Positions 386-34,743 of a stretch of 34,868 nt of DNA are shown piece by piece. The notes beneath the pieces were generated by a model. It saw nothing but the letters and a program-made list of their open reading frames with translations, was not told the origin of the DNA and searched no databases. The first letter of the stretch is position 1. Every line of letters begins with the position of its first letter. Where the stretch lies: positions 1 to 34,868 of the forward strand of contig JAULBX010027683.1 in assembly GCA_032358255.1 (NCBI GenBank), read 5' to 3'. The translations under genes and the position numbers were made by a program. The DNA is from Heterotrichella gracilis. Taxonomy: Eukaryota > Sar > Xanthophyceae > Tribonematales > Xanthonemataceae.

Positions 386-2377
386 GTGGGGGAGTACATC
401 CAGAGCAAGGGGGGAGTGGTGACCGCCGAGGAGGTTGCCCCTTTCCTGGATGTAAGCCAGGGCCCAGACCGCAGGCGGGACAGCACCATCCCCGATGAGA
501 ACTTCATGCTGCCGGTGCTGCTGCAGCTGGAGGGGACGCCGGAGGTGGATGACAAGGGCAGGCTGCTGTACACCTTCCCTGCCCTGCAGCGCACAGCCAG
601 CAAGAAGGTGAGCATGGCGCTTGTTGATCAGGATTTTGGGGTTTAGGTGTGGGGTTCAGGGGAGGTTGCATTGCACCTTCCCAGCGCTGCAGTGCACAGC
701 CAGCAAGAAGGTTAGTGCGCTTAAATATTGCCAATAGCAGCGTTTACCATTGCCAGGTAACCATGGCACTGGCTAATCAGCATCACAAGGGTCAGGCTGA
801 TTGCTCATCTGCGTTGGTGTCAAAGTGTATGTGAGAATGATGGCTAGATGTACTGCTTAACTACACCTAGCCCATTTCTCCAATGGCCCTAAAGCGTGAC
901 CCCAATACCCACCCCACAGGGCCCCGCCCCCCGCCGCGCGGCCCTGGAAGCGCCCTGGAACTTCACTGCGGCCTCGCCCATCCAGCGCTTTGCCACCGTG
1001 GCGCTGGGTGCGGCCAACCTGGTCGGTGTACTGGTGCTGAGCAGCATGCTGCAGGACCCAGCGGCGCGCATGCAGCTCGTGCGTGGCTCCTTCGGCTTTG
1101 TGCTGGGGGCGCTGCCGGCGCTGCAGGTGGGGTGGTAGGGATTACGGTGTGTGCTAGGGTTCCTGCATGCAGGGTTCAGGGTTTTCGATACTAGCTAGCT
1201 CGTGCGCGGCTCCTTCGGCATTGTGCTGGCGGCGCTGCAGGTGGGGTGGCTAGCATGCGCTGCGTTTCTGTGTGAAGTTATTGTACCATCCTTGTACGAG
1301 AGAATCAGTGACTTGCAATGCATGCTTCATCTATAGTCTCCACCTCTGCCCCTCTCTCAACGCGATGTGTGCGGTGCGCAACTACAAACAACAGAGTGGT
1401 TAATCGCAATCCAAGTCATGATCAGTGGGCACAAGCGCAAGTCGTACATGCCTTGTTTTAAAGCAAAAGAGAGCTTTTAAAAATGCTGTAGATTTCCATG
1501 TGATGTCTTTTTTCCCCAGGTGTACGCGGCAGCCTTCTTTGCCATCCCCGCCGTGCGCTGGGTGCTGAACCAGCGGCGCAACGCCACCATCGAGGGGCGC
1601 AACGAGGCGCGGCTGCAGTGGCTCAAGGCGCTGGACCAGCCAAGCCCACAGCTGCAGGACAAGATCAGAAGCGCGCGCCGCCAGGCACAGAGCCAGGTGA
1701 GCCTCCTGTTCCTCAACCCTGTGACTTTAGCACCAAAACCTAAGTTGTTACATGTAAAATCCTAGACCTCACCTGCGCGCGCCGAGTGGCACAGGGCTAG
1801 GCAAGGCCTCACCCAAACTCTAACTTGCTTTAAGGATAATACCCGTGACCCTATTGTGCGCGCTGCGTGGTAGAGAGCCAGGTGAGCCCTCACCCTGAAC
1901 CCTTAACCCCTCCTATTATTTCCCCTGGGCTGGGGTACTACGGAGGGTAGTATCCGTAACCTCAATGTGCGCGCTTCGAGGCACAGAGTCAGAAGTTGTG
2001 AATAATTGTTCTTAAATATCAGTGTCATTTTCTATTGGAAGGATGTTTGCAAATCTTAATGATGTTGTTAGCTAAATAACTGATTGATACACATATTAAC
2101 GGGCATATCATCCTTTGCTCAGGTGATTCGGGATCGCGACGTGGTATACAGCTCAGACAAGGCGGCGGGCGAGCAGGCGCAGGACTGGGAGGGGGCGGAG
2201 TTTGAGCGCAGGCTGCAGGCTGGGAGTGGCGGCAGGCCGGCTGTGGGGGAGGGGTCGGGGAGTGCGTACCCCAATGTGCGGGAGCGGACGGAGGTGCGGG
2301 AGGCCCTAAATCCTACAGGGTATCCCAACCTGAACAAGAGGGTCAAGGCGAAGGAGGCTCAACTGGAGGACTGGTGA
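386..2377 (+). CDS. At5g03900-like chloroplast membrane protein, 3' part
   Basis: Exons by eye are 386-607, 920-1126, 1520-1696 and 2123-2377 (TGA); all introns are phase 0 and GT-AG. The 286 residues visible match my recollection of the plant protein At5g03900, named in databases as an iron-sulphur cluster biosynthesis family protein and predicted to be chloroplastic. In order they show a winged-helix-like segment (VVTAEEVAPFLDV), a conserved PEVDDKGRLLYTFPALQRTA stretch, two hydrophobic segments (around FATVALGAANLVGVLVLSSM and the FGFVLGALPALQ/VYAAAFFAIPAVRWVL junction), a basic Arg/Asn/Glu segment, and an acidic tail that includes VVYSSDKAA. The biochemical role is not established; the family name should not be read as proof of Fe-S function. 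The N-terminus, with any transit peptide, lies before the window, because 386 follows a clear acceptor (cccgcag). The short introns carry copies of exon ends. Confidence 0.8.
661..716 (+). repeat. Decayed copy of an exon 3' end plus donor
   Basis: Aligns with 553-613, the end of the preceding exon. The block gcacagccagcaagaagg is kept, and the donor gtgag has become gttag. It lies inside the intron 608-919. Confidence 0.8.
1195..1245 (+). repeat. Copy of the second exon's 3' end plus donor
   Basis: Aligns with 1076-1136. The string ctcgtgcgcggctccttcgg is nearly identical to the exon, and the copy still ends in gcgctgcaggtggggtgg with a usable donor. Confidence 0.85.
1774..1992 (+). repeat. 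Three decayed copies of the third exon's end
   Basis: Copies near 1774-1800, 1851-1886 and 1966-1992 resemble 1670-1704 (gcgcgc...ggcacagagccaggtgagcc). The middle one keeps the agagccaggtgagcc donor context almost intact. Confidence 0.65.
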
Positions 2378-2620
2378 GGGGGTTATGACTTCTTGCCGGG
2401 GTTTGCCAACGCATGCAGGGGGTGTTTGGGGCGAATAGCAGGCGCCCTGCCAAGAGCGAGGTGGGGTTGCAGGAATGATGGGGTGGGCGTGCATTGAAAG
2501 GGACAACATGTGTATACTAGTATTACTTGGCACCAAATACTGTTTTTTGGAGATTTCAAATTGGGACATTCGTGCCGTTTTTGCATCGCATATCGACGGT
2601 GTGTACATGTTCGTCATCGC

Positions 2621-2716
2621 AATGGTGGCAGCACTTCACAGCCTGTTGATTTGAAAAGCTTGGGACACAATGGTGGCAGCACTTTACAGCGTGTTGAAAT
2701 GAAAACCTGGGACAGA
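2621..2716. repeat. 48-bp tandem repeat, two units
   Basis: Units 2621-2668 and 2669-2716 both start aatggtggcagcact and end with a gggaca-type motif. They differ at several positions. The repeat lies in the presumed 3' UTR of the first gene. Confidence 0.8.
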
Positions 2717-2808
2717 CTGTGGGCACCAAGCCTGAGTCAGACAGTGGTGCCTGTCTGGCAGACCTGTACAGCAGGATCCTGCACAGAAGATCCTGATTGC
2801 ACAGTTAT

Positions 2809-2813
2809 TGTAA
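2809..2813 (+). terminator. Candidate TGTAA polyadenylation signal
   Basis: TGTAA, the usual green-algal poly(A) signal, occurs about 430 nt after the stop at 2377. The spacing is long but plausible. Confidence 0.35.
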
Positions 2814-3230
2814 TGACCATTGCTACAAAACCCTTGACTTGGAGGTGTTGGGCTTCTGCTGACTCAGTCTGATCTTTTGCTCGAGCTGATGATAATCTTA
2901 CTGTGACGTATTCTCGCCGAGGAATAGGCTGCGCAATGGTGTACTATCTAGACCGTTCCAGCCCGAGGCAACCTGGTACCAACCATGTGTTTCAACAGGC
3001 CCTCAGGCTGACGGTCACGTACAAATAACGTCACATGTGTACACGTTGCGTGGCATGCGCATGCGTGCACGCTGCAGCGCTCTAGTGTAAAATCGGGGTA
3101 CACCTGTCAGGTACATGGATGCCACAACACTTGCAGCAATTAATTTGCAAATTCGCGGCGATTGATTACTTGTTCACCGTTAACCATGACGTCTTAACGT
3201 TTTGGTTAAATTTCACACATTGAATAATTT

Positions 3231-3256
3231 TATCATATCACAATATCATATCACAA
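3231..3256. repeat. Perfect 13-bp tandem repeat
   Basis: The unit tatcatatcacaa occurs twice back to back and is followed by further cacaatgat words and a tgacgtca palindrome at 3265-3272. Confidence 0.8.
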
Positions 3257-3692
3257 TGATCGCATGACGTCACAATGATTGCTTATCAACACGATTTCAT
3301 AATTCAAGGCAATGCCAGCTTGAGATTATTATAATGCATGCACAAGGTCGCCAGCATGTCATCCGATTAGACTCTATTTGGATTTTTTCATGGCAGTGCC
3401 AGGCAGTAAATGAGAATTAGTGTCACTGCTCGAATCGATTGGCAATATTTATACGCCTGGCGCATGGTATGCGCCTGCTGCAGCCCCACTAGTTTGGAAG
3501 CCCCACTGATGGCGGCTGGGGCAGTCCCAACCCTTTGCTGGCACGGGGTGGCACACCCACTTTCCAGGCCATAGCTGCTTGGGGCGTGGCATCCACACTT
3601 GATCCATATGCCCCACAGCGTGTGTGGAGCCCCTCCCCGTAGCCCACCCTCCAAGGCTCTGGCAGGGGTCCCTTCCTCCACACCCCCTCATT

Positions 3693-3880
3693 AGGTTACT
3701 GCAAGGGCGCATTCTGCAACAGGCCCCCACCACATTTCGCCCCTACCACACTTGGTCACCCCCGCCTTTTAGGGGTAGCTGCGAGGGCGCATTTTGCGAC
3801 CGGCCCCCACCGCATTTCTCCAAATTTTCCTACCACATTTTGGTCACCCCCGCCTTCCAGGGGTAGCTGCTGGGGTGCGC
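3693..3880. repeat. Tandem repeat spanning the chromodomain gene stop
   Basis: Units begin near 3693, 3771 and 3859, each with a ggtagctgc-like start, then gcgcatt, ggcccccac, and a tggtcacccccgcctt end. The third is partial. The stop codon (3830-3832, minus strand) lies inside unit 2, so the last residues of the protein come from repeat sequence. Confidence 0.8.
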
Positions 3881-6800
3881 ATCCAGGTTGCTGGCTGGCT
3901 CCCAGGTGTTGAAATCCTCATCATACCCGTACCACTTGATCAGGTACAGGAGGACCCCATCATCGCTCCGACCCACATCTAGCACAGTCTCAACATAATA
4001 CCGCTCCTCCTCACCGCCCTTTGACCCGCTCCCCTCCCCGTTTTCCTCCACCACTGGCTTCCTCCCCCCCTTGCCTGCTGCTGCACCCCTTGTACCGGAC
4101 GCGCCTTGCTTCCGCCCCTTCGCTGGAGCTGCCGTCCCCCCCTTGGGCACATTCCCCTTGCCAGACCCCCCCTTGACCACCCTGGAGCCGTTCGCAGCAG
4201 AGCGATTCCCTCCCCGTCCCTGTCGCGCCGCACCAGCCTTCCTCCCCTTGGAAGCTGCTGCAGCGGCGCCCCCTTTTACCCCTGCATCCCTGCCAACCAC
4301 CGCCTGGTCTTTGCCCGCCGCCCTGTCGCCCCTCCGGGAATTCCGGGGAGCAGGTGCAGCCCCCATACCGTCTTCTCGATCCCCATTATCTGCATTTAGG
4401 GTGGCAAACCGTTGCTCCCTGCCAACAGAGAGCCTCCTGCTAGCCTGCCTCACTCTCTTGCCCTTGTCGGCATCCTGGGAAGCCATGGCTGTGGCTGTGG
4501 CTGTGGCTGTGGCTGTGGCGGTGGCTGTGGTTTTGCCTGTGGCTGTGGCTGTGGCTGTGGTGGTTGTGGCTTTGGCGGTGGCGGTGGCTGTCCCCGTGTG
4601 GTTGGCTTGATTCCCCCCTTTGGGTGCGCCCCGCCGCTGGCGCTTAGGTGGCGGTTCCACAGCGCCATCCTCGTCCGTCGAGGTGGCCTCTGGTTGGTCG
4701 AGGTCCGGCTCAGCTGCCTGCCACAGGCGAAACAGCATACCGGTGAGAAAGCAATTGATTTCCATTTCGACTACAGCAAACTGTACATTAATACAGGCTA
4801 TCCTATGACTGCCAAACTGTATTGCTGAAATGCATGCGCCAATTAACAGTTTTTATGTGCCAGGCTAGCCACATGGATTGCAGAAGTGTCTCCACTCACA
4901 CATCAGCGCTGCATGTGGCACCAGTGGTGCGTGTGACATCGCACTCACTGGTGCAACGGCATTGCTCTCAAATCGGTAACACAGACCAATGGCCACAGGC
5001 AACCCTAAACCCTAAAACAGTTCATGTAAATGCATTGGCGCACCTGGTGTGGTGTGCCTGGCACAGCAGCAGGCACCGCCCTCCCCGCCTCATCCTCATA
5101 CTCGGACACCCTGCACCACACCAACCACCCCATTACCCCATGCATTGGAGAAGACTCAGCAGGGCGTTGGTCTGTCGAGGCCTTCCAGTATGGCAGCAGA
5201 GTTTCTGGCACTGATGTGACACCTACCAGCACGCCTTCACTGAAGCTTTCAGTAAGGCACAGCCTGCATTGCCTACAGCACAGTGACCCTCACCTGAATA
5301 TGTGCACCCGGATGTCCCTCGAGTGCCTGTGCACCTCGAATGCCTGTGCACCTTGAACATGCTTTTGAAATGTGCTTCTTAAAATGCGCAGCCTCACCTG
5401 AATATGTGCACCTTGATGTCCCTCGAGTGCCTGCCGCTGGAGTCTGGCAGCACCTCGTACACTACCACATCGCCAAAGCACAGCTTCTGCAGCAGCAGGA
5501 GGTTTAGGGTTTAGGGGTTAGGGGTTAGGGGTTAGGGTTGGAGTCTGGCAGCACCTCATACATTATAACGTCGCCCAGGCAAAGCTTCTGCAGCAACGGG
5601 AGTTGAGCAGTATTCTAACTGCAAATCCACACAGCCATCCAATATTACAATAATAAAATGTAAAATCATTACATTTTAGAATATCAGAAAACCGAAGAGA
5701 AAGTCCATGGCATGAATCGAGTCTGAAAGGCACAAGCAAGCTGGGATGCACTCTTGGCCATCATAGCCATCGCAGCAGTTATACCCCGGAGTTATACCAC
5801 AGCCAATCACAGACAAGGCCTCTACCACATAACAGCACCGGTCATCCCCAGCACACACACCAAACACCTGATACCTAACCCTAAACCCTAAACCCTAAAA
5901 CCCTAAAACCCTACACCCAACCCCAGGGTGATGTACATGGTCCAGTGAAAACCCCTTCCAATTCCCGCTGAAGCCAGCCGACACCTGGGTGCCACATGGC
6001 CTGCCCAGCCAAATCACATCCCAGACGTCGTCCCTGCCGTGGTTGGTCAGCGCCTGCGGGGGATGGAGGCGGTGTGCAGGTCAAGCTTTGTGGTTGAGGG
6101 TTGAGGGTACTCGGCACTGGCCATGGTTGGTCAGCGCCTCCGGGGGATGGAGGCGGTGGGCAGGTTACAATAACACCTTTAGGGTTTAGGTTCGCTTGGC
6201 ACTGGCCGCAATTGGTCAATGACTGCGGGGAATGGAGGCGGTGGGCAGGCGGAGTGGGGTATAAACTCTGGGGTTTAGGGTTCAAGTTCGCTTGGCGCTG
6301 GGAAATGCGGGAATAGGGCTTTTGGTTTAGGGTTTAGGGTTGCTTGGCACTAGACGTTAGGGTTAAAAGGTGTGGGTTTAGGGTCGATTGGCGCTGGAAA
6401 GTGAGGAGCAAGGTACAGAGAAGCTTAATGCCATGGGGGTGGTGATCCCATATCCATCGTTTCGGCCGTTGGCACCAAATCCCTGTTGGTCGGGAGCAAA
6501 ACCCTAATGCCTGGAACCCAAACCCCTACCTGCTGCGAGTACTCGGTTTCCTCCCATGGCACGTCATCGCTGATGAGGTGCACCGTGACCTTGTCCTTGG
6601 GGGTGGTGATCCCTAGGATAGGGTTTAGGAGCTTGGCCAGGTCAGCAGGGGCCTGGCACCAGAACCCTCCCGCACAGATGGACCCGCTCATTTGCTGCAG
6701 GGAGGGGTGGTAATTTGTGTAAAATGTTTTAATTACTTTTAAACTGCAGATGGACCCGCTCATTTGCTGCAGGGAGGGGGTGCCAAGGTTGAGTTTTTTC

Positions 6801-8778
6801 CTGCTGATATTTGTCATTATTGGTGCAGGGAAGGTGCAGATGGCGCCGCTCATCTGCTGCTGCGTGCGGGAAGGTGTGTAGTGAGTTGGATCATTTTTTA
6901 ATTGCCCAATGGAAGTTCCAAACTACCTTGGCAGCGCTGTTGAGCAATGCATGGCCGCCTCTGCACCCGATTCCTTCCTCCGCATTTTCTCCTTCCTTTT
7001 GTGATCGCTCCACTAGCACCGTGTATCGTCAGGGCTGAGGAAACGGCATGTGCAGCCAACCCAGCTTTCGTCAATATGACGATTGAAATATTCTACTTTG
7101 TACTGAATGTTTCATTTTTTATTATGCTTCATTTTAAGAGGTATTTTGCCCCACCTTGGCGTAAGCTGGGTTGGTGAGTGATGCCACCAGCTCATCCGCC
7201 GCCTCTGCACACCGATCCATGGCGGCCCTGCTGGGGACCAGGGCCAGCGGATCCCATCCCTTGAAAAAAGTCAGCTTCCCGGAGCCAGTGATCCTGCAGT
7301 GGGCGCACATACATAAATGAAAGGGTCTTGATGATCACATACTGATTGGACATCCCAGGTAAAGATCCCATCCCCTGGAACACTCCTGGTTTCTCAAGTC
7401 CATGGCCCTGCATGGGCGCCGATGCACAAATAAGGCAAGCAAATAGTAAAAAATCCAGCAGCTCTGCCAGAGGAGCAGTCTGCCCTTCACGCCCATGGAC
7501 CAGCCGGCCCTGTCCTGGCACTGCTTATCCCTCGTGTGCACCGGCGGTCGTGTCAACGCAACGACTGCTAAGGACGTTCAAGGCAAGTGATGATAGGGGT
7601 ATGCCAGGCACTCACAGGTCCGCCCCTCTGCGCCGCTTCTTGCTCCCCCAGGATCGGTCCCCCGCCCCATTCCGGGCCTCCCGGAAATCTTCCGGCGCGT
7701 AGCTCTTGGGAGGAAGGCTCTTCAGCCTGCACGTCCAGGAACATATACCCTTGTAACCCCTTATGCGGGTTCAGGGTTCCTATGGGGTGTACACTTGAGG
7801 TGTGGTGGAAGGCGTCCCACCACGACAGCGGGGTACTGCCCTGTGTGACCATACAAGCAAGTATGCAGGCATGTGCTGGGAAGTATGCACAAGACACGTG
7901 TGGGTTGGGTTTCTTGTGGGATTCGGTGTGGCGGCTAGGGTGGGAGCTCAGTTAAAGGAGACTTCAGGGTTTGGGGTTTGGGGTTTGGGGTTTAGGGTTT
8001 AGGGTTTAGGATTTAGGTGGGCTCACCTTGAGGAGGGTTCCCTGCGGTCCACCTCCGCTCTGGCTACCCTCAGCGTGACCCTGCAAGAGTAGGGTTTGGT
8101 TAGGGTTTTCAAGGGGACATGCAACGTATACGCGCATATCGGATATGCATGTAGGTGGCACAGGAGATAGGGTAGGGAAATCCAATCCAACAAACCCTAA
8201 ACACCCTGGTGCCAGGTCGGCAAAGAGGCAAAGTGGACAAAGAGCCCGCGAGGGTTAAATGCCCACCAGGGTTTTGTTGGCATGTTACCCTGGCCCAAGA
8301 AGTGAGACGCTCAGCGTGTCAGTGTATGTCACTGGTAGCGAGTTGTGCTCCGTGAAATGATACGAAAAGCCGGATACAGTATGCCAGCGCCGGTGTATGT
8401 ATGCGTGATCAAGGGTAGCGGATGAGAAGAGGCTGCACAAATGCATGCATGCATGTGGTCCACATCAGGGCACACAACGCTGCAATCCCCCAACATCCTT
8501 GCCACATGCAATGCCGATCAGAGCATATGTAGACGGGGAGAGAGGATTGCCGGCTAAAGGCGACTGCGCGCAAGCTGCAGAGGTGATACAGTCACAGTGC
8601 TCTTCGATGTTTTGAATTTGAAATCTGCGTACCTAGGTTTTGGCTTGGGCTGCGGTTTTGTGGCCACCAAGCCTGCCACAGCTGCTCTCAAATTGAGTTG
8701 CTGCTCCATGGCCTTCCGTCGGGCGATGTTCTCGGCTCGCTGCCGCATGGTCTCTTCATATTCGCTCTCGTTCGTCAT
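3830..8778 (-). CDS. B3 DNA-binding and chromodomain fusion protein
   Basis: Nine exons (minus): 8633-8778, 8027-8080, 7616-7726, 7155-7293, 6530-6694, 5937-6053, 5398-5486, 5044-5110, 3830-4717; 591 codons plus TAG, all phases consistent. I start at ATG 8778 (MTNESEYEET). The N-terminus (YEETMRQRAENIARRKAMEQ, then RREPSSRLKSLPPKSYAPE) matches the start of plant B3 proteins of the At5g42700/At3g19184 type. Residues about 150-275 form the B3 domain: GGFWCQAPADLAKLL, VTVHLISDD, VWDVIWLGR, FSGNWKGFSLDH, GDVVVYEVLPDS, IKVHIF. A Lys/Arg/Gly/Ala-rich linker follows, with an Ala-Thr repeat. Residues about 535-577 form a chromodomain (YYVETVLD, LIKWYGYDEDFNTWEP) with the aromatic-cage positions filled by Y537, W558 and Y561. 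Known of the families: B3 binds DNA and chromodomains read methyl-lysine on histone H3. Inference: a sequence-targeted chromatin reader in the nucleus. Introns contain many exon-edge copies. Confidence 0.87.
4488..4593. repeat. TGTGGC hexanucleotide repeat encoding Ala-Thr
   Basis: A run of tgtggc and variant hexamers sits inside the last exon of the B3-chromodomain gene. On the coding (minus) strand it encodes alternating Ala-Thr, a low-complexity spacer before the basic linker. Its length is probably polymorphic. Confidence 0.85.
5294..5345 (-). repeat. Copy of the B3 exon end plus donor
   Basis: Aligns with 5395-5440: cacctgaatatgtgcacc, then gatgtccctcgagtgcctg. It includes the complement of the splice donor. 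It lies in the intron 5111-5397. Confidence 0.85.
5501..5539. repeat. Telomere-type TTTAGGG/TTAGGGG tract
   Basis: Repeated gtttaggg and ggttagg units lie exactly between the B3 exon (5398-5486) and its copy at 5539-5594. Confidence 0.85.
5539..5594 (-). repeat. Copy of the B3 exon start
   Basis: Aligns with 5436-5492: ggagtctggcagcacctc, then agcttctgcagca. It sits upstream (minus strand) of the real exon, with a telomere-like tract between them. Confidence 0.85.
5873..5914. repeat. Telomere-type CCCTAAA tract
   Basis: Five or more CCCTAAA/CCCTAAAA units lie in the intron just beyond the donor of exon 5937-6053. Confidence 0.85.
6119..6250 (-). repeat. Two copies of a B3 exon's acceptor side
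   Basis: Copies at about 6119-6166 and 6203-6250 match 6036-6080: tggtcagcgcc, then ggggatggaggcgg and gggcagg. Each is followed by gggtttagg-type sequence. The real exon is 5937-6053. Confidence 0.8.
6747..6873 (-). repeat. Two copies of another B3 exon start
   Basis: The block cagatggacccgctcatttg of exon 6530-6694 (at 6675-6694) recurs at 6747-6780, nearly perfect, and at 6836-6873, diverged (cagatggcgccgctcatctg). Confidence 0.85.
7361..7422 (-). repeat. Decayed copy of exon 7155-7293 start
   Basis: Resembles 7240-7303: gatcccatccc, then a changed middle, then ctgca and gggcgc. Identity is lower than for most copies. Confidence 0.5.
7966..8017. repeat. Telomere-like GGGTTTGG/GGGTTTAGG tract
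   Basis: Seven or so units lie immediately beyond the donor of exon 8027-8080. Confidence 0.85.
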
Positions 8779-9266
8779 TGCTGGGGGGGATGAGTTCAAT
8801 CACGGTAAGTTCAAGCACCCCAGACTGCTGTGCGGTTTATGAGCAGCAATCGGTCAGAGAATGCACCTTTATTGGGCGCCGTGTCTTGAAACAACGTCGC
8901 TTGAGTGTGATATAGGCTCGTGAGGCTTGTGATTGATACCTTGCCTGGGGAACACTGCCTACAGCACGAGAAGGGGAAGATAGAGGGGTGGTTGTTGTTG
9001 TTCGGTAACACAAGAAGCACGGCAGCTACAAATACTGTAGTAGCCCCTTGCAAATGACTACAAGTATATTTAATAGCTGCAGAAGATGCTGTGTGTAACG
9101 AAATTCCCGTACTTTTGGACAGTAAGATTTATTCTATCTCTTTTCCAAACAGGTACACCTGTTGACATCACCCCATTCAATCCATCCTAGGCCTTGCAAC
9201 TGCGCATATAAGACCCCCCTCTCCAAAACCTATGTCAGAGTACCGTCACTATACACGGCCAATCGT

Positions 9267-9309
9267 GAAGCTTAAAGCTTAATTAAATAGCGTAAGCTTT
9301 AAAGCTTTT
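9267..9309. repeat. Imperfect AAGCTT inverted repeat
   Basis: The words aagcttaaagctt (9268-9280) and aagctttaaagctt (9294-9307) can pair around a 13-nt A/T-rich spacer. Four AAGCTT-type words lie within 43 bp. Confidence 0.7.
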
Positions 9310-9388
9310 GCGCCCTTGCTTCTCAGATAACAGCCCACGATGCCTCAGTCAGTGTTCACAAATTGGCCTGCCGCAATGGTGATTCAAC

Positions 9389-9393
9389 TTACA
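9389..9393 (-). terminator. Candidate TGTAA poly(A) signal for the U-box gene
   Basis: ttaca on the plus strand reads TGTAA on the minus strand, about 100 nt after the stop at 9495. Confidence 0.35.
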
Positions 9394-9494
9394 AGGAAAT
9401 AGATATAATACAAAGGAAATAATTACGAATAGAGCTAGCCACCGGACGAATATAGCTAGCCACCAGTACCGCAGACGACGCAGCATACATCCCT

Positions 9495-10583: not shown

Positions 10584-10692
10584 TCAGTAGGGGTCTCAGA
10601 GCGTGCCGTACAGCGGTTTAGTCCCAGAGGGCCAGTTGGCACCGCCTGCCTCCACAGCTCCCACACGTGGACCCCGCAGTTGGCACTCTGCG

Positions 10693-13600
10693 TCAGTGGT
10701 GGTAGGGCTCCCCCTTGAGTATTGTCCACCCCCTGTAGATCTGCTCCACCAGCACGACGTAGGCCACCTGGAGGCAGCACAGCACACATATAAAAACATA
10801 AAATTGGAGCACATATTGACCCGCGATAATGTAAGATATGTACAACAAAGAGGCACAGGTAAATTATCCTGTGATCACTGTTAAGTTTTTTTGCAGGTAG
10901 CCTCGATTCAAATCCAACAGTTTATTTACAGTAATGTCCACGCCCTGTAGATCTGCTCCACCAGCACCACGTAGGCCACCTGGATCCAGCACAGCACTCA
11001 TAAACAAAATGTAAAAAAGGAGCACATTGACCTGTGATAATTTGTATAAAAGACCTTAACGACAAAGGAGCCCAGGCAATTTGTCCTGTGATGGAATTAT
11101 AAGAACTTTTACAGGGAGCCTCAATTCAAATCCAACTGTTTATTTAACTTTAATCCCGTTAGTTGTTTATGCCACATTGGATCGGATTCAATTGCTTTGT
11201 TTATGTTAAATTGCACCAACTTTGCCAGCCGGATGGTGCCATGATGAAACATGGCATGTTACATCCCCCATTTCCCCTATGTATCATCCCAACCTGGTGG
11301 TTGAGCACCAGGTTTGACGACCGAATGGTCCCATGCGCCTACAGTACCCCATGGTATAATCCCTACCTGGTAGCTGGGAAACATGTTAACAGATGGTGGG
11401 ATGCGCCCGCTATATAGATGACATCAATGCTGTGCTATGTAGGTGACACGATGCAACATATTATCCTCACCTGGTAGTTGAGCACGAGGTTTGAAAGCCT
11501 GATGGTGTCATGCGCCCTCTATAGATAACATCAATAATGTCACATGATACAAGGTCACGTGACTCATGCGACATGATGCAGTACATCATCCTCACCTGAT
11601 GATTGAGTACCAGGTTTGAAAGCCTAATGGTGTCATGCGCCCTCTGGCGGACCTCGGGGCTGTGGCCATAGGGGCCGCCTATGCAGAAGGTGAGGCCGCT
11701 GGCGCCCCCATCCCCAGCCTGCGCCAAGGAGTGAAAGAACCGTTTCAAAACCCCCAAACCCTAAACCAATCCTAGTATCCAAATCATGGTGCGGAAGCCA
11801 TCTAATACATATAGAGGCCCAGCTCACAGCCTCAAGCGTTGATAGGGTTAAGGGTTCAGGGGAGGAAGGAGCACGGCCTGGCATGCACCACTGGAGTGTT
11901 GCAACTGTGAATTCACCTACCTACCCAGCCATGACGGCATTGGAGTACCTGCTCTGCCCATGAGGCAACACCCACCCACCTCAGCTATAGAGTGCAGTAG
12001 GTACATGGTCACGTGGCACCACTTTAAACCCTAAACCTCCAACCCCCACCCCCCACCCCTAAACCAACGCCCCACCTCAGCGATAATGTCCGCCACTTGT
12101 TCCGAGGTGACGTTCCTCCCCCGCTCATCCAGCAATATGATGCGCTCCCCTGAACCAAGCAGCTTCACTACCTGCAGGGAGGGGAGGGCAGATTAGGGTG
12201 TAGGGTTTAAGGTTCCTCCCCCGCTCATCCAGCAATATGATGCGCTCCCCTGGGCCAAGCAGCTTGACTACCTGCAGGCAGTGTGAAGCATGCATTAGGG
12301 ATTAGAGTTTAGGATTCAAGGTTGGCTCTCAGCAGGGATGGAAGTTCTGCCGTGCAGCGGTCAGCATTCTGAAACTGCCCAGGCATGCCACGGCATGCTA
12401 TACACCCATCGGAATAGGCGTCGCCATTAATGTCGCCCACGAACACAAAATATACTGTCCCCCATGCCATCTTCCCTCACCCACCAATCCTATCCCCGTT
12501 GTTCCTACCTTCTCCCCCTCCCCTGCAATCGCCACCTCCACCACGCTCGCCCTCTTAGGGTTTGGCTTGATCTGCACTTCGCTGAACTTGGTGTACCGCT
12601 GGACCTTGGCAACCCACTCATCTGGAAGCAAACAAACAATTGTAGGCAGGGGACAAGGGTGCTGTATGGGCTGCTATCGAGCGAGTTGCACCGACAAGCC
12701 CGTGCCAGGTCGCTAAGGGTTTAGGGTTTAGGGTTTGGGAGACAGGATGCCACATTAGAGTTGGAGATGGTTAGCTGCCCCAGCATGCTGCTAAGAAAGT
12801 GTGCCGGCACCGATACTGGTCTAGCCTACTTGCAGCAAAACTGGCGAAACCCCACCTTCCCGCAGCCAGGTAGTCCTGGCCACATATCTGGCCATGCCCC
12901 ACTGGAGCTGCGTGAAAACATAATTTACACTAAAACCCCAGACCCTACCTGCCTTGCACATGCTGCCGCCTTGAATAACCCCTTCGCAAAAGCTCAAAAA
13001 CAGGTTGCTGGGCACGCAAAAACCTAGACCCCACCTGCCATGGGCGCAGCCCCTTTGGCGCTCCCCCTGTGACTGTCACAACCCTGATGGGGTACCACAT
13101 GCAACAGGCGCTTGCGGGACACAATCCCTCTCTGAAGCTGCAGCGTTACCCTAATGCATACATCCCCAACACCTAGACCCTACCTGCCATGAGCGCAGCC
13201 CCCTTGGAGTTCCCCTTTGTGACTGTCACCACCCTGATGGGTACCGCACGCACCGCACGCGCCAGGCGCTTGCGCTCGCCCCCTGCCGCCGCAGTTGGGC
13301 CACCGCTGAAACCCTGGACACCGGCAATTACCCTAGCAACGGCGCCCCTGGTGCACCACAGGACGGGGTTTGACAGCGCACACTTGCGCTAGGCAGGCGG
13401 GGTTGGATACGGGTGCCAATTGCGTGTGGCTTATCAACCTGGATGCAGAAGCCTCGTGGTTTGCTTGGGACTGCTGCCCTGTATACCCTGGACCCATGGA
13501 AGGGCTATGACCCATGGAAGGGCGTCCCCGATGCACTGTTTGGCAGCGCACACTTGGTGCTAGGCAGGCGGGGTTGATGTGGGTATAGAGCAGTGTGCAC

Positions 13601-14404: not shown

Positions 14405-15264
14405 CCAAGCATTGCCTGCGAGCTGGCGGGAGGGCCTCTCAGGCAGTACCTGGTCGCGGAGCGCTGCATGGACGCGATGACACGAAATACAGCGCCATCT
14501 CGGCAGTCAATTACCTGAAAGGTGAGCTAGAACTTTATTGTCGGCACGGCGTGTGACCAATTGCGCAACCCACGGCCATCCAAGTGGTGGCAAGGTGTGT
14601 ACAGCACCTGTCAACTGGGCGCTGTAGGGCTGCCCTGCCCTCGTCATATTGTTCCATTCTTTCGCACGGCACGGTTCTATTCCTTCCATCGTAACTCACG
14701 CTGCGTAGGAAGCATACGGTCTTGCACGGTGTTTGGAAGGTGAACCTCTTCCTGCCACGAGTGGTAAAGCACAGCCCAGACTGAGGGCCCACAGCCGTAT
14801 TTTAGTGCTGCGTTTGGGTTCACGATCAGATCTGAGGTGGGGAACGTAACGGGGGAAACCCAAATGGCTCGAACTTGGCCCATTTCACACGTGTTGGCCC
14901 TCACAGCCTGTCGAGTGGTTGATGGGTACCCACAGAAACACTAGGCCCGGGGTAACCTGGTATACCACTAGGTGGTTGGGTGGGTATCCAAACTGCTGTT
15001 ATCATCTCACACCACTACGCAGCCAAGAGCTCACAGTTAGAAGCAGACCATAGTCTGCCTTGTGGTGGTTATCCAGCCCACTATCTCAGGCTTGATTGTG
15101 CCCTGGGGTTGAGAGCGAGAGTATAGCGTTGCGGCCATTGCTTGTGCGTTTATCCTCCTTGTGGCCCTTGCCTGCAGGTGTGTTGTGTAAGGGGCTAGTC
15201 CCTATCAACACCCTGCCACAACCTTGCTCATCGCAGAAGGGCTGTGGCAAACCCCCCGGTCAAC
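14405..15264. promoter_or_regulatory. Divergent intergenic region, RlmH / LOV kinase
   Basis: About 860 bp separate the two putative start codons, which point away from each other. A CACGTG (G-box core) lies at 14888-14893. A cag acceptor-like site at 15234-15236 means the kinase could have an upstream 5' exon. No other gene is seen. Confidence 0.45.
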
Positions 15265-27795
<12,531 letters not shown>

Positions 27796-27819
<24 letters not shown>

Positions 27820-28187
27820 CCGCCAGTGGCCCTCATGGCATCATGTGGTGTCGCGAGGACAGCCAATGGCAGCATGCTATCTGGAACAGCCATTTGACAG
27901 CTTCAGTACCCACTGGCAGCGCGCCATCTGGCACAGCCTAGCAGGCAGCAGGCGTTGGAAGCGCGCTAATCGAGATTGCCTGGGGAATAAACAGAGAGGT
28001 GCCAGCATGCCACCTGGCAGGCACCAGCCAATGGCAGCACGCCACTTGGCAGTGCCTGGGGAGCCACAGCATGTCGAATGGCAGGGATGGCGCCACAAAA
28101 ACGCTTGTTATGAGGCAATAGCCAACTGCAGCCCGCAGCTTGGCAGTCCAGGGCCTCGATCCAATGGCGGCACGCCACCTGGCAGGG
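27796..28187 (+). repeat. AATGGCAGCACGCCACCTGG-type repeat array
   Basis: About six diverged units lie at 27796, 27863, 27911, 28004-28065, 28120 and 28161. The first overlaps the last codons and stop of the LOV kinase. The array continues through its presumed 3' UTR. Confidence 0.65.
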
Positions 28188-30503
28188 GGTTGGGCCAGGT
28201 GGTTAAATTTTATAGCACAGTCTTTTGCGCATCAGACCACGAGATTTTTCAGGGAGGGGGGGAGACGTATTGGGGGGGATGGGAAGTGGGGAGTGGGGTT
28301 GGGGGGGTTGGGGGGGGTATTCGCATGTTGGTGGGCAATGCCTGCTTGTAGAGTGGAGTGGGGTAGGAGTGAATTGATGCATTGCAATTAAGGGCGTTTT
28401 ATCAGCCCTCATGTAGAGCGAAGCAGTTTTCGCAGGACAATTGGGGCGCCCCAATCCGAGCCTTTGGCGCTTGGGGGATGCCCAATAAGGGGGGGGAGAG
28501 GGGGCTATCAATGATAGCGCATTGCTCCTGTATGTGCCACGCTGGTTTCCAAACACGGATTTAGGCACTTATACATATACAGTGAGCGGTGGTGGGCAAG
28601 TCACAAGGGGTAGGCTTTCTTACTGGCTCATGGCATCAACACACACACATGCAACTTGCTTGAAGCTTGCATGTGGCACAAAGTGCGCTAGCTATGAGCC
28701 GTCTCATATGGACCAGGCAACATCTTGGTCTTCAAAACGCATGCACGTTCATAAGTTAAGAGTTTTTTTTGTGTCACTTTTTCATGGACGCAACCCTACA
28801 AACCGTTAGCGCGTGGACTATACTTTATGCGCATCCACTTGTGCTGCACCTAGTTCAATCATAGCACTGCATTTTGAAAATGTGGGGCCACATCTGAACC
28901 TGCAACTTGGCCTGTTGTCAGCAGTGGCATATGTGAGAGATTACTTTTCCTCGTTGTTTCAAGTTGACTCGAATGGCGCCTGGCTTTGTCAAAGAGCGAG
29001 ATGGTGCCTGACTTTGTCTAACAAAATGGTTGACCCTTAAATGGGCCCGGTGTTAAAATCTGTAGCAGCATCTTCAGTGAGTCACAAACCGGTTAGTTTG
29101 CATGTACTGTACTGAGGGCAAACCCTGGTAGCCTACGGGTCATCCCACCGCTCACATGTGGTGTCAGATCATTTGACAGGTTTTTGTGAGTAGGTGGTAT
29201 TAAGCAAGAGTATTTTTTTATTAGCAAGCCTAAGATTGGCATATCGTGCTCCACAGGTTGCTGCCCACCCTGTTTGTGCTTTCAACATCGCTGGACCAGG
29301 TTGGTAGTGGGCCGCCTTGTTGGGGGCGGTTATGTTCCTTGCTGTCTTTCTGCTGTACGCCGCAAGGAGTGGGTAGCAGCCCCACTGCACTCCCCTCTGG
29401 TTCAATGTCGCACTGCAGTGGCACGAATTTGCATAGCGCAAGCTTGCTTGTTTTTCCTGTCACAGTGGTGTGGTGGGCTTGTCACAACTCCAGTGATAAT
29501 GTACTGCCAAGTGTGGAAATTTCCAGTCCTGGCGCTGCACCGCCTCACCTGCTGTCAATTGCTCAGACATCAACTCGAATACTGGGTACCTACCTAGGTG
29601 CATCATGTTCGGAACTGGTGCATGAACTGGTGCATGAACCCATCTCGCTGGGCTAGGCAGGGAAGCTTTTATGCAGCATGGAAGGGGTGGCTGGGTCAGC
29701 TGCCCAGAAATGTATGCAAGCTGAAGGTGGTTTCCTAGATGCTACACCCCTAGGGTTTGCTCCACCAGACAAGGGACTACTGCATGATGCATCCAACTCA
29801 TGCATCCAATTCATGCATTGGTATCCACTGGAATGAGGGATGCATGCATGCATTGCATGCATTGGAATGAGAAATACGAGCACCAAGAGGTGGCGCGCCT
29901 CGGCGGGGTAAACGAGCACAGTGTATTTGCGTAGACACTGTGGTAAAGGTGCAATCAACTGGTAAAGGTGCAACCAACTGACAGCACCCAAACGGAAGCA
30001 CTTCAGCTGTGCCACTTCTTGGAATGCACGAACTCTGACCCTGACTATGTGTACATAGGCATTGCCACAAAACATTTTCGTGTATTACCGCGCTCTGTAT
30101 CGGAACAGCACTGGAAGCACCAGTAAAACAAGCATTTTCGAGAGCACTCCCAACATACTTGGCTCTGGAAGTGGTATGCACATCAACCACTGTGTCCACA
30201 CCTGAAGGGTCCACCGGTTGCCATAGCGTATACCAAACCCTTGACGGGGGCAAGCAAGCCAATGCAGCCTCTGTGTTCATTTTCACTGCAGAAAGAACGT
30301 GGTGGGCTGACCACTACCTCACAGCCAGGACTCCTGAACATTGCCAGTCTGTGACTTGCCAGGTGGGTGCACTCGGGGGTGCACTTCTGCTCTTTTTGGG
30401 AGTCCTAGCACCCAGGGCAGTTGTTCCCAACCACAAGTTCCTTAAAGTTACTGCCACTGACTGTTAACTTGCTCTGCAGCGCGCAACCAGCCGTGCTTGT
30501 GGC
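28188..30503. other. 2.3 kb with no recognised gene
   Basis: Contains a G-run tract (28248-28320), ATGCAT palindromes (29783-29880) and several short open frames without recognisable domains. It should include the kinase 3' end and the F-box gene promoter. A cag acceptor-like site just before 30480 allows a 5' UTR intron. Confidence 0.5.
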
Positions 30504-31949
30504 ATGGCGGGCAGAACTCCCCTGCACATCCACGACCTGCCAGACGGCTGCCTCGCCAACATATTTGCCCAACTAGACCAGCAACGGACGTGGCAGCACT
30601 GTGGCACCACAGCCCAGCTGGCCCTGGTGTGTTCCAAGTGGCAGGACCTGCTGCAAGGCCCCAGCGCTGTGTGGGCCACCATCAACCTCGAGCCTCCACA
30701 CTACCCCAACCCATACAGGGTGGCACTACTGCTTGCTTGGTTGCGAAGCAGGCTGCCTGGCACCCACAGCCTGACTATAAGGCCAGGTACTGAGTTGTGG
30801 ACCCCCCAGGCTTGTCAACAGCTGCTGGCGGATCTGAACCCAGCTGTGCTCCAGTCGCTGCAAGGGCTGGCGCTTTTCCCACCACTTAACATCGCAGACA
30901 GTTGCAGGCAGCTTGGCGCGCTGACTCGCCTCACTCACCTTGAGCTGAGCACTGAGGTGCCCAGCATGGGTGCGCTCCACACCTTCACTCAGCTGTCCAC
31001 CCTGACCCAGCTCAGGCACCTGGACATCATAGTGTGGCACAATAAGCGGCTGGTCACTCCCCACCTCCCCTACCTGCCCAGCGTCACAACCCTGTGGGGT
31101 AAGTTCATGCTGGACGAGGAAACTGTGGCCAGCTAGCCCAGCCTTCAGCGCTGCAGCTTGGAGCTACACACCTATGGAAGCTGCGTGGGGCCCTGTTCAG
31201 TCCCAGCCAACCTGTACCAGCTCACTTCCCTCACCAGCCTCGCCATCGAAACAAACGTCTGGACGCCTGTGCGGTTCCCAGCCAGCTGCTTCCCCTCCTC
31301 GCTGGTGGACCTCCAGCTGTGCAGAAGCATGATCGAGGTCGATCAGAGTCAAATGGTTCAAGGGGAGGAGGGTTTACCATCGCTCCTGCCAGCCATCGCC
31401 CTGTTCCGCAACCTGCGCAAGCTGGTGGTGGTGAACTTTCCCACCACAGATATGGGCGCCGTAGTATCAAGTCTCACACACCTGGAGGAGCTTGGAGTCA
31501 CACACAACCTGGCGGTGCAAGAGGTGTTCATCATTCCAGCCATGCCCAATCTGACCAAGCTGACATTGACGGGTGTTGATGGCCATATTGAGAACTACAA
31601 CCGCAGGCTGCACAGGTTTTTGTTCCCCATGCCCCACCAGATGCACCCAGACCTGCGTTGCTGCTGGTATGACCCTGCATACACAAGTGAAGAGGAAGGA
31701 ATAGGCGGCATTCGGCCCATATACCCTTTCCCGAACGTCACAATTACCCTACAGGGCAGCTGGGGAAGGTACACGTTGCAGCGAGCTGCCCAGCCAGCCA
31801 ACTCCGATTATTTACGCTATACTATCAGCTGTGATCAGGGGTTTACAAATGAGGGTGAGGAGGGGTTTCCTAGGCAGCTGGGGGATCCAGGGGACAATGC
31901 TGGGCAGGCTGAGGAGTACGCCTGTGCCAAGGCATGGTTGATGAGGTAG
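30504..31949 (+). CDS. F-box/leucine-rich protein with in-frame TAG
   Basis: One frame runs from ATG 30504 to TAG 31947-31949 (481 codons) and is interrupted only by TAG 31134-31136 at codon 211. Residues about 8-60 form an F-box (HIHDLPDGCLANIF, LALVCSKWQDLL, VWATINLE); F-box proteins recruit substrates to SCF ubiquitin ligases. Leucine-rich segments follow on both sides of the TAG: LGALTRLTHLEL, LTQLRHLDIIVW, then LYQLTSLTSLAIE, LFRNLRKLVVVNFP, SLTHLEELGV, MPNLTKLTL. The sequence across the stop reads ETVAS-stop-PSLQRCSLEL, so coding evidently continued. A gtaagt lies at 31099, but every nearby AG acceptor gives an intron that breaks the frame. Possible readings: a recent null allele, a 210-residue truncated product, or readthrough. 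The substrate is unknown. Confidence 0.7.
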
Positions 31950-32142
31950 GCACGGTTAAGACCAGTTGGGACTGATGATGATTATCATATCGTTGAATCA
32001 GATTGGTGATTTATTTATTACAACCATACTGGCTGACAATGTCACAGTGGCAGTTTGATCCGCAACATTTGCATCTGTGTTACATAAAATCACTGATGTG
32101 GTGGCATATCAGAACGGTTGGCGTCATAACGACGCACTCCCA

Positions 32143-32147
32143 TGTAA
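32143..32147 (+). terminator. Candidate TGTAA poly(A) signal for the F-box gene
   Basis: TGTAA lies about 195 nt after the final TAG. On the other strand TGTAA also occurs at 32080-32084 and 32018-32022, which could serve the convergent GEX1-like gene. Confidence 0.4.
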
Positions 32148-32329
32148 TGCATGATGTGCAAATATCTCTCACAAGTGTCACTCGGCAACTTCAACCAAGA
32201 GCTTCAATCAATTCCCTGCGCCTAGTGTAGGCAGAGAACAGTCCACATCCCACCAATCTTGCCAGGAGGTATGGCGCAAAACAAGGAGTTTGGTCCAGCA
32301 AGAAGCTTTAAATCCACCAGCTCTTAACT

Positions 32330-32452
32330 CTGAAGTGGGTACCCCTCCACCAGCACCACACCACACCCAACCCAATCCCAGCAGCATGCTACCCCTCGGC
32401 AGCACTGCCACTTGGAGCGCCTAGAGGGCGCTGCTGCTTGGCGCTCTAGCTG
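32330..32452 (-). repeat. Copy of the GEX1-like gene's 3' end
   Basis: Aligns with about 32550-32655: ccctccac.agcaccacacc, cagcagcat.ctacccctc, ggcgctgc.gcttggcgct. The real last exon begins at 32597, so the copy covers the end of the coding sequence and its 3' flank. Confidence 0.8.
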
Positions 32453-32596
32453 CGCTTCACGTATGTTTTGCAGATCACGGCCGCTGCCCTCCACCAACAA
32501 CTTGGAGCAAGCGGCTCTAAATCCATCGTGACAGCTCCCATACGAGTATCCCTCCACAAGCACCAGCACCACACCCAACTCCTCCACAGCAGCATT

Positions 32597-34743
32597 CTAC
32601 CCCTCAGGGTCAGCAGTGGAACGCCTGGAGGGGCGCTGCCGCTTGGCGCTCAACGGCCTGCCAGGACCCCCTGAGGATACCCTCCCCCGTTTCACACGGG
32701 CTAGCGCAGGGCTAGTGGCGGTGTCATCCGCAGGCCGGGAGCGCTGGCGGGTGAGGCGGCCAGGAGGGGGTGCGGGTGGTGGTGGGCCCGCGCCGGTGGG
32801 TGGTGCGCCACCACTTGTGGTGGGGCGCAGGGGGCGGCGGCTGTAGGGTGGTGGCAGCTCTGCCGGGGCTTCTGCATCTGGAGCCACATTAAGGGAGGGT
32901 GAGGAGGGGCATGAGGTGGGGGCAGCAAGGGGTGGTATTGCGCGGAGATCAAGAGGACGACTTTTATTAGAACATCGGGGTGAGTAGGGCACGTGGAGGG
33001 ATTACCCAGCCACCTACCACAATTGTGGTTCATTGTGGACACTAGACCATGAAGACCAAGACTCATGATGGGATGAGTATCTCACCTGGCGAAGGCAGCG
33101 CCAGCATGCCCGCATCCGGGGAGCCTCTGCCCCGCACAGCCCCCCCTCTCCCCTCCGCCCGCCCACCTCCATCCACCCCTTCCCCCCCCGCCTGGGCACC
33201 CCCCACGAACACCCCCTGGGGTAGGTGCAGCACGATGGTGGGCGAGGGCTGGTCACGCGCGGCCTCCAGGCTGTGCTGCATGGACATCATCGGTGGCGCA
33301 GGATGGGAGGGTAGAGCGGGGGCCAAGTAGCCGCCACTGCCGCGGCCAGTGTCAGGCCCTGGCGAGTGGAGCGCATGGGCGTGCGCGTGGGGATGGTTAG
33401 GGTAGTCTTGCGCTGACGCGCCCTTGGAGGGTTTGGCGTAGGGTTTTGCGCCCAGGCGGGCCTCCAGGTCTTGCATAATGGCTATGCGCTGCTGCGTGAG
33501 CGCGTCCCGGTAGCGCTCCTCTGCCGCCTTCATCTCCCGCTGCACCTGCTTCAGCATCCTGCAGCGCGCAGGTAGTTGCTGTTTCAACATAGTTGCAAAA
33601 GGAAAAGGGCCCTAAATGGCCCCAGTTCCAGTGATCAATACGATGATAAAAAAAAAAACGATGGCACCACTGCCTCCCATCCCACTCTGTCACCCAATTG
33701 TAGCTCTCCTGCTCCAAGTTGCAGTAAGTGCACAGCTTCCAAATGAGCACCAATTTCCAGCCCCCGACACTTGCCCCAAAATCGGGGACTGACAATTAAC
33801 CCCACATTTGGCTAATTGGACCAATTGTTCCATGGCAGGACAATGGACAATCCCCATTTTTTTCACTTCATCCCCCCCGCCACCCACCTGTAGCTCTCCT
33901 GCTCCAGGTTGCAGTAGGTGCACAAATTCCACAGGAGCACCATGAGCGCCACTGCCACACAGGTCCTGCGCACCGCCCAATGGAAGTCCAGGGCCCAGGG
34001 GTCGCGCATGGCTGCGCCTGGCACCCAGGAGGGGGGGGCGAGCACAAGAAGCACCTGGGGAAGGAACAGCGGCGTGTGTCAACATAATACATCAATAAAT
34101 CATGTACTTGTATGCACCAAATTACTATGGATAATGGTGTCGTAGTAATAAATAATTGTGTCGTTAGTTAACTGATTTGCGCAGGCACTTTGTCACATGG
34201 GCCACATGCAACATCCCAGCAGATAATGTACAAAAAATCACCACTACATTGCCTAGCGGCATTCAAGTGCCCCCTGCACAATGCTTCAAATCGCCGCTGG
34301 CAACTTGCCACGGCTAGCCAATGCCACTGCTGTGCAAATTGGTGATTCTACGCTTTTGAGGCGAATGCAGTTTTCTGTGTGTCTTAATTCTTTAAATTGG
34401 AAATTTCATTTGTTTCCCCCTCTTTCCACTACCATTTTACAGCATGCTGCACCGCACCTCCCCATTCGGCTGAACATTCAGCATGGTGGGCAGCCTCCCA
34501 ATGGCCATCCGCTCCGTGGCCAGCCCCGCACCAAACACAGTCAGCATGGGCAGCCTGGCCGCCGCAGCCGTCCTGTACGACCCCACCGAAAAGCTGGAGA
34601 GCGCCGCCACCGAGTAGAAAACCAGCCCGTCCAGGCGGAAGCTCTTGCCCAGGAGCATGCTGAGCAGGCCATGTGATCGCTGCTGGACGTCCGACAGCAT
34701 CTCAAGCACCTCCAGGAGGCTGTGGGAGTGCTCCTTGAGCGCC
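32597..34743 (-). CDS. GEX1: GEX1/Brambleberry-like nuclear fusion protein, 3' part
   Basis: Exons (minus): 34458-34743, 33888-34054, 33086-33558, 32597-32877 (TGA); about 401 codons visible, phases agree. The 5' end lies beyond the window. The first visible exon has a helical stretch (LEVLEMLSDVQQRSHGLLSM), then a hydrophobic segment starting LDGLVFYSVAALSS, then SYRTAAAARLPMLTVFGAGL. The next has a third hydrophobic segment (CVAVALMVLLWNLCTY) followed by CNLEQESY. Then comes a charged helix (EMKAAEERYRDALTQQRIAI) and a long Pro/Gly/His-rich basic tail (RQRSRPADD, KRGRVSSGG). Coiled coil followed by three C-terminal membrane segments and a soluble tail is the plan of the KAR5/GEX1/Brambleberry family, nuclear-envelope proteins needed for karyogamy after gamete fusion. 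The match rests on layout and remembered sequence flavour, so the name is tentative. Confidence 0.55.
33692..33765 (-). repeat. Copy of the GEX1-like TM exon end plus donor
   Basis: tgtagctctcctgctccaag, ttgcagtaagtgcaca repeats 33889-33960 (encoding LCTYCNLEQESY). It lies in the intron 33559-33887. Confidence 0.87.

Follow-up and report, generated by a model that had tools for sequence, protein, structure and literature searches.

Introns of the xanthophycean alga Heterotrichella gracilis appear to lengthen by recurrent short tandem duplications that span exon-intron junctions, an interpretation drawn from sequence comparison to which we assign a probability of roughly 70%. The window analyzed here is a stretch of 34,868 nucleotides (nt), contig JAULBX010027683.1 of a 68.5 Mb, 903-contig assembly (GCA_032358255.1), and its principal example is the gene of a LOV/PAS hybrid histidine kinase (LOV-HK). 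Twenty-four LOV-HK exons were placed by hand, with exons further upstream left unplaced; they form one open frame, and GT/AG is present at 23/23 introns. The closest proteins are green algal, namely those of Myrmecia bisecta (55%, with 78% of the query covered) and Botryococcus braunii (67%, with 43% covered), with Elliptochloris and Coccomyxa next in line, an affinity that by itself would most likely indicate a trebouxiophyte. When a copy was defined by a Smith-Waterman score of at least 38 against the adjacent exon edge, 18 of the 23 LOV-HK introns carried one; lowering the score to 34 gives 23 copies in this gene. The gene and its copies at the higher threshold are listed below, donor-side copies repeating an exon end and acceptor-side copies an exon start.

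15548..27819, + strand: LOV/PAS hybrid histidine kinase gene, 24 exons
15814..15859, + strand: acceptor-side copy of exon start 15925-15970, 96%
16736..16762, + strand: donor-side copy of 16547-16573, 93%; weaker second copy at 16817-16853
16988..17025, + strand: acceptor-side copy of 17186-17224, 85%
17435..17517, + strand: donor-side copy of 17258-17341, 84%; contains gaps that shift the frame
17950..18024, + strand: donor-side copy of 17754-17818, 74%
18346..18405, + strand: acceptor-side copy of 18539-18598, 95%; a third and older one lies near 18085-18130
19737..19827, + strand: donor-side copy of 19559-19649, 90%; spacer contains a telomere-like tract toward its end
20273..20343, + strand: donor-side copy of 20115-20193, 76%
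20930..21001, + strand: donor-side copy of 20709-20777, 86%; preceded by a telomere-like tract
21317..21354, + strand: donor-side copy of 21222-21259, 92%; second copy at 21413-21447, CCCTAAA-like tracts in both spacers
22179..22202, + strand: acceptor-side copy of 22306-22329, 96%
22605..22675, + strand: donor-side copy of 22417-22487, 85%; preceded by a telomere-like tract
22756..22788, + strand: acceptor-side copy of 22872-22904, 97%
23169..23202, + strand: donor-side copy of 23027-23060, 91%
23674..23756, + strand: donor-side copy of 23522-23603, 90%; preceded by a telomere-like tract
24128..24198, + strand: donor-side copy of 24018-24084, 87%; telomere-like tracts precede it and a short third copy near 24230
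24823..24850, + strand: acceptor-side copy of 24939-24966, 96%
25164..25199, + strand: donor-side copy of 25013-25050, 84%
25347..25391, + strand: acceptor-side copy of 25442-25486, 91%
25728..25789, + strand: donor-side copy of 25528-25589, 90%; second, more diverged copy at 25904-25973
26669..26716, + strand: acceptor-side copy of 26763-26810, 85%
27401..27429, + strand: donor-side copy of 27290-27318, 93%

Comparison of 23 LOV-HK exons with all introns except the following one gave nine pairs scoring at least 38; eight were with the preceding adjacent intron, and the sole non-adjacent match paired exon 16 with intron 10. Self-comparison of the window by BLAST produced 48 direct pairs at 38 bits or more, 46 of them at 50-400 bp offset, and a single inverted pair. 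An earlier sequence-only reading of the window had described the copies as direct and local, in agreement with this result, and its four best examples were all recovered: 15799-15870 (15801-15859 vs 15912-15970, 95%), 18346-18405 (18339-18405 vs 18532-18598, 96%), 19735-19835 (19559-19658 vs 19737-19836, 89%), and 12212-12283 (12112-12181 vs 12212-12281, 94% over 70 nt). Its count of more than 35 copies can be set against 50 rows at a threshold of 36 bits (1096 bp spacing in one case); some rows are unassigned to any exon edge, e.g., at 10.0-10.5 kb and 28.0 kb, and the score of at least 38 together with gene models places 26 copies exactly, 22 of them in LOV-HK. Weaker or second copies beyond these 26 lie at 658, 1777-1999, 16817, 21413, and 25904. 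In places, copies occur in series of three at graded divergence. Within LOV-HK, an older copy and its downstream spacer (18085-18199) resemble a younger copy and its spacer (18355-18492) with a score of 31.5 (shuffle maximum, 17.5), which is a possible sign of conversion in view of the 96% identity between the younger copy and its exon.

A wider sample of 210 predicted introns at 34 loci, LOV-HK excluded, was examined in the same way. The comparison with shuffled intron-exon pairs that the sequence-only reading had proposed gave a clear answer, as 38/210 introns contained sequence copied from an adjacent exon against ~0.1 expected from shuffled pairing. Own-pair scores of at least 38 were reached 16 times with the upstream exon and 27 times with the downstream exon, vs 0.02% of pairs between an exon and an intron of another locus (42,328 pairs per side), and chance is excluded as the source of the exon-edge copies. 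Exons outside LOV-HK are predictions of a hidden Markov model (HMM) gene finder written for this genome, which recovers 23/24 LOV-HK exons exactly, LOV-HK itself being part of its training set. The sample of loci is non-random, with 25 loci stemming from a single domain search (AAA). Loci L030, L040, L042, L044, L045, L047, and L048 were excluded before counting as overlapping or repeat loci, in addition to L001 and L002; the remaining overlaps (L023/L029 and L039/L046) leave at most 9/210 introns possibly double-counted, with L023 and L046 giving no copy. Loci without predicted introns, e.g., L003, L007, L009, L024, L025, and L032, contributed zero introns.

Altogether, copies were found in 56/233 introns. 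The statement that most introns carry copies is true of LOV-HK only (18/23), the proportion falling to 4/12 predicted introns in the rest of the window and 34/198 elsewhere. Copies extend beyond the window, but the habit is not uniform: any copy at all is present in 14/34 loci outside LOV-HK, and none of 2000 permutations matched this heterogeneity (LOV-HK included). The loci with copies number 15 if LOV-HK is treated as separate from the remainder of the window. Copy-free loci are also poor in other short duplications, with 94 introns yielding two exon-intron, one intron-intron, and two exon-exon pairs. Of 20 sampled contigs (~197 kb), ten had two or more local direct pairs, one had a single pair, and nine had none; pairs spaced within 600 bp numbered 89 in direct and 13 in inverted orientation. 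Introns average 403 nt with a copy vs 274 nt without, a difference to which the copies themselves contribute.

The anatomy of the copies was analyzed in the all-locus set of 65, LOV-HK included, comprising 30 copies of an exon end and 35 of an exon start, with repeat lengths of 20-104 nt and offsets of 67-292 bp. As had been claimed, copies lie beside their parent: 59/65 are in whichever half of the intron adjoins the exon they repeat. As to the accompanying claim that the splice site is usually included, 44/65 copies extend to 3 nt or less from the junction, and GT or AG is kept in 35/65. Homology continues past the splice site into the intron (anchored scores of 9.5 vs 2.4-2.5 for controls), with 23/46 copies above the controls' 95th percentile. 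No homology past the exon-interior breakpoint was found in LOV-HK copies. Among young copies (exon-half identity of at least 88%, n = 31), alignment of the whole spacer with the stretch past the copy exceeded the 95th percentile of control pairings in 21 and the 99th in 13; in ten, the intron half exceeded the 99th percentile over at least 80% of the spacer. Examples of related intron halves are 174/174 nt at 63% and 67/73 nt at 80% in L006, and 115/120 nt at 74% in L012. As the intron half is related in 21/31 young copies, most of them appear from sequence to be head-to-tail tandem duplications of an exon edge together with the adjoining intron edge.

These related intron halves weaken a model in which filler DNA is inserted between two copies of an exon edge that serves as a long target duplication. 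That model was prompted by the seemingly unrelated spacers of the copies starting at 15801 and 18339, and it may still apply to the ten young copies with unrelated intron halves, which include several of 93-97% exon identity. Intron gain of the Rogers type, with a copy of the upstream exon end abutting the far splice site and supplying the acceptor, fits at most 1/65 copies (L022 D); 6/65 rows project to within 8 nt of the far splice site or past it, of which five stop short of the junction. Insertion of mobile elements (introners) with long target duplications is very improbable. Some spacers do consist of near-pure telomere-like DNA between direct repeats (5502-5538 in the window; L005), as such insertions might leave, but LOV-HK introns are mutually dissimilar (mean intron-by-intron score 20.1, 99th percentile 30.9) and a 3.8 kb stretch with several copies had no match elsewhere in the genome in a search that skipped very common words. 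Moreover, the repeats of 20-104 nt exceed the target duplications of 3-9 bp in the available text on introners (PMC9860276).

Whether the copies serve as exons bears directly on the duplication interpretation. At 18/23 LOV-HK junctions (introns 5, 15, and 18-20 being the exceptions), no indel falls within 8 residues in the alignments of at least 6/8 homologs from algae, and the copies at those 18 junctions therefore lie outside the protein. Across the 65 copies, differences from the exon comprise 145 synonymous and 173 non-synonymous changes (46% synonymous), falling from 19/13 in the youngest identity class through 46/48 and 45/54 to 35/58 in the oldest, and 55 frameshifting gaps are present. 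The expected synonymous share is 29% for a dead copy alone and, by our estimate, roughly 43-50% for a dead copy beside a constrained, silently drifting parent. The copies thus decay in a near-neutral manner, like non-coding DNA, and nothing points to coding retention. A selective constraint had been hinted at by LOV-HK alone, where 28 differences are synonymous and 14 are not in copies of at least 88% identity, and is absent from the 65-copy set. That LOV-HK ratio (28/42), along with the GT or AG retained in about half of the copies, would suit alternative exons under selection, either mutually exclusive or poison, yet we consider this quite improbable: the synonymous share over all copies is 145/318 and drops with divergence, reading frames are broken by gaps, each copy covers part of an exon and has a single splice site, and the proteins of relatives lack an insertion at most LOV-HK junctions.

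A further concern is that the copies reflect misassembly or mixed haplotypes. The assembly does include foreign-looking contigs with a GC content of 0.35-0.38 and no predicted introns, but copies diverge from their exons by 0-26%, with indels, recur at 15 loci, and form the graded series of three described above, while intron halves at 58-80% identity far exceed allelic difference; with the S3Ae ribosomal gene found once, an artefact is hardly credible. The single S3Ae gene also speaks against the presence of two eukaryotes in the assembly as the cause of patchiness. The foreign-looking contigs (C1, C100, C180, and C331, with loci L003, L007, L009, L024, and L032) have long open frames and probably belong to another organism. 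Separately, the contigs of copy-free loci L008 (C140) and L016 (C460) have terminal telomere arrays, predicted introns, and few telomere-like tracts in the 10 kb sampled. Several of 93 kinesin-domain profile matches cross in-frame stops, perhaps as short introns bridged by the search or as copies read as exon.

The sequence-only reading was silent on a second feature of the duplications, the presence of telomere-like DNA at their breakpoints. Perfect TTTAGGG arrays end several contigs, e.g., at the last base of C460, and TTTAGGG is therefore taken as the telomere repeat of this genome. Its heptamers are the most over-represented class of 7-mers in introns (850 vs 57.5 expected from base composition), with a density of 11.96 per kb in introns and 0.75 in exons (16-fold). 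Telomere-like tracts are most frequent 10-40 nt inward from either end of an intron, copy-free introns included; the 5′ peak contains both strands, whereas CCCTAAA predominates in the 3′ peak, where it could act as a branch site. Within 30 nt of a duplication breakpoint, 16.0% of the sequence is telomere-like, compared to 5.2% at matched distances in introns without copies. None of 2000 resamples reached this value (maximum 10.3%), composition-matched motifs gave 2.6%, and the share stayed at 15.3% (n = 32) without LOV-HK and L006; the surroundings of exonic breakpoints are 0.3% telomere-like. General placement of tracts at intron ends was insufficient to account for the effect under this junction-matched resampling. 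Tracts of at least 12 bp are present in 25/65 spacers vs 13.0 in matched segments of introns without copies (maximum 22 in 500 resamples), and loci with a higher heptamer density in their introns tend to have a larger share of introns with copies (rho 0.60, p 0.0003, 31 loci), perhaps partly through multiplication of tracts by the duplications.

These observations suggest a mechanistic refinement of the tandem duplication interpretation rather than its opposite, in which telomere-associated break repair would be the engine: staggered breaks at intron ends would be filled by CST-Pol alpha type fill-in or by telomerase, duplicating the flank in direct orientation and leaving telomere-like DNA at the new joint. 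The breakpoint enrichment, its near absence at exonic breakpoints, the per-locus correlation, and the arrays at contig ends argue for such repair, as do partial precedents from other organisms (PMC8355091, PMC7215372) that may extend to this alga by analogy. Set against this, the 25 spacers with a tract of at least 12 bp are a minority of the 65, and tracts at ordinary intron ends may be sites that were fragile beforehand or signals for splicing. The corresponding end of the second unit bears a tract in 7/21 copies with a breakpoint tract and in 5/36 without one, which is compatible with insertion as well as with pre-existence. On balance, repair of this kind is possible but should be regarded as tentative. 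The fuller proposal, that TTTAGGG at intron ends acts as a hot spot or arises as a fill-in product, with telomere maintenance driving intron growth across the genome and copies then being homogenized with the parent exon by short gene conversion, appears doubtful.

Several results weigh against growth by tandem duplication across junctions. Twenty of the 34 loci outside LOV-HK have no copy at all, and the exons there were predicted by an HMM partly trained on the tested loci. Ten of the 31 young copies lack an intron-side relation above the 95th percentile, including some with the most identical exon halves. Plain neutral duplication fits poorly in two respects. Copy loci contain 87 exon-intron vs 14 intron-intron pairs (11 pairs are exon-exon), a ratio of 6.2:1 where simulation gave 1.7-2.1; this ~3-fold excess is indicative, the comparison being rough in that simulated pairs were detected by Smith-Waterman and real ones by BLAST under low-complexity filtering. 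Intron halves have also decayed too far. In a simulation scored in the same way as the data, intron-side scores per nt were 0.69-0.76 for exon halves of at least 93% identity and 0.48-0.61 for those of 88-93%, compared to observed values of 0.147 (n = 16) and 0.243 (n = 15), and the observed score is flat across exon identity classes (0.147, 0.243, 0.131, 0.224). This surplus decay would be explained either by conversion of the exon half with its parent, by fast turnover of intron ends, or by copies made with little intron; short gene conversion of the exon half is the tentatively favored candidate. The sequence-only reading's inference of recurrent, junction-spanning tandem duplication is supported in part, with respect to direct, local copies outside the conserved protein and to related intron halves, but not as a uniform process, and the junction ratio and over-decayed intron halves are left outside its simplest form.

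Short duplications mediated by paired nicks and by patches occur in plants. In the sequence of events proposed here, a staggered break or paired nicks would span an intron end, in many cases where a telomere-like tract lies, and filling in and joining would yield a head-to-tail duplication of ~70-290 bp that crosses the exon-intron junction; breaks or repair at such tracts may thus generate the duplications. Those internal to an exon would be purged by selection, while those crossing a donor or acceptor could be kept, as the outer splice site would still yield the old mRNA. The surplus exon edge would end up inside the intron and decay as non-coding DNA. That its exon half stays more similar than its intron half may reflect local gene conversion by the parent, or ends of introns that turn over unusually fast.

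Elsewhere in the window, the copies occur in genes unrelated to LOV-HK, as the sequence-only reading had stated: a SPOUT methyltransferase gene (by Pfam) and two genes without a Pfam match, at 386-2293 (+ strand, exons predicted) and ~5.3-7.7 kb (- strand).

658..715, + strand: donor-side copy of 555-612, 84%, in the 386-2293 gene
1197..1241, + strand: donor-side copy of 1074-1118, 91%, in the 386-2293 gene
1777-1807, 1858-1888, and 1969-1999, + strand: three decayed copies (68-84%) of the predicted exon end in 1673-1703
5539..5587, - strand: acceptor-side copy of 5438-5486, 84%, separated from its parent by the near-pure telomere-like tract 5502-5538
6026..6249, - strand: tandem array of three units at 84-85 bp spacing, telomere-like DNA at unit ends
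6747..6766, - strand: acceptor-side copy of 6675-6694, 100%
10930..11146, - strand: full-length tandem duplicate of 10718-10928, 79% over 219 columns, offset 212
12212..12281, - strand: copy of 12112-12181 in the SPOUT methyltransferase gene
32359..32446, + strand: copy of 32567-32651, 80%; gene model weak here

Other repeats were also observed. A chromodomain gene (4474-4609, - strand) has a repeat of 12-bp period encoding an Ala/Thr-rich run, and the pair 3699/3779 overlaps the end of the chromodomain frame and is assigned here as a repeat pair only. Directly past the LOV-HK stop codon, 27860-28189 contains four copies of a GC-rich unit of 32 nt, 66-78% identical to the first.

Among the best-ranked literature matches, which included few subscription journals, no report of genome-wide exon-edge copies in introns or of telomere tracts at such duplications was found; as far as these searches show, the novelty lies in the density of copies, their gradation by divergence, the lengthening of introns already present, and telomere-like DNA at breakpoints. 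Known systems, each judged from the available part of its report, share individual elements. In a potato RdRp gene, tandem duplication across an intron-exon boundary created a new intron (PMC4974935), and tandem duplication has been inferred for some introns in Drosophila (PMC2891723). Local tandem duplication is common to both and to H. gracilis, and the potato segment likewise crosses an intron-exon boundary; however, these are single cases of intron creation, whereas here existing introns grow and the copies are internal and recurrent. Exonize counts intronic and boundary matches of exon duplication in 20 genomes (PMC12343006), but its accessible text deals with whole exons in annotated genomes and has neither an exon-edge habit nor a telomere link. 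For genomes of this kind, gene finders may annotate such copies as exons.

The closest parallels to the proposed repair are break-repair duplications, which are likewise direct and short and which derive from staggered breaks. CST-Pol alpha, a complex that also acts at telomeres, makes small tandem duplications at breaks with 3′ overhangs (PMC8355091), although the part of that study available concerns experimental breaks with 43 bp overhangs in mouse and human cells, with no link to splice junctions or interstitial telomere repeats. Interstitial telomeric sequences resemble the present tracts in being short telomere repeats at break sites: in horse and human, telomere repeats were inserted at double-strand breaks, and flank duplication at 3/66 horse insertion loci was attributed to staggered breaks (PMC7215372). 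According to the same text, those insertions mostly come with deletions, added sequence, or complex changes, whereas the H. gracilis tracts, as candidate insertions, cluster at intron ends and duplication joints. Arguments about how introns lengthen have usually drawn on transposons and single cases. In this one genome, events graded from near-fresh to barely recognizable lie alongside their parent exon and are associated with telomere-like DNA at intron ends, so that direct tests become possible of how often such events occur, which repair pathway acts, and what becomes of duplicated splice sites.

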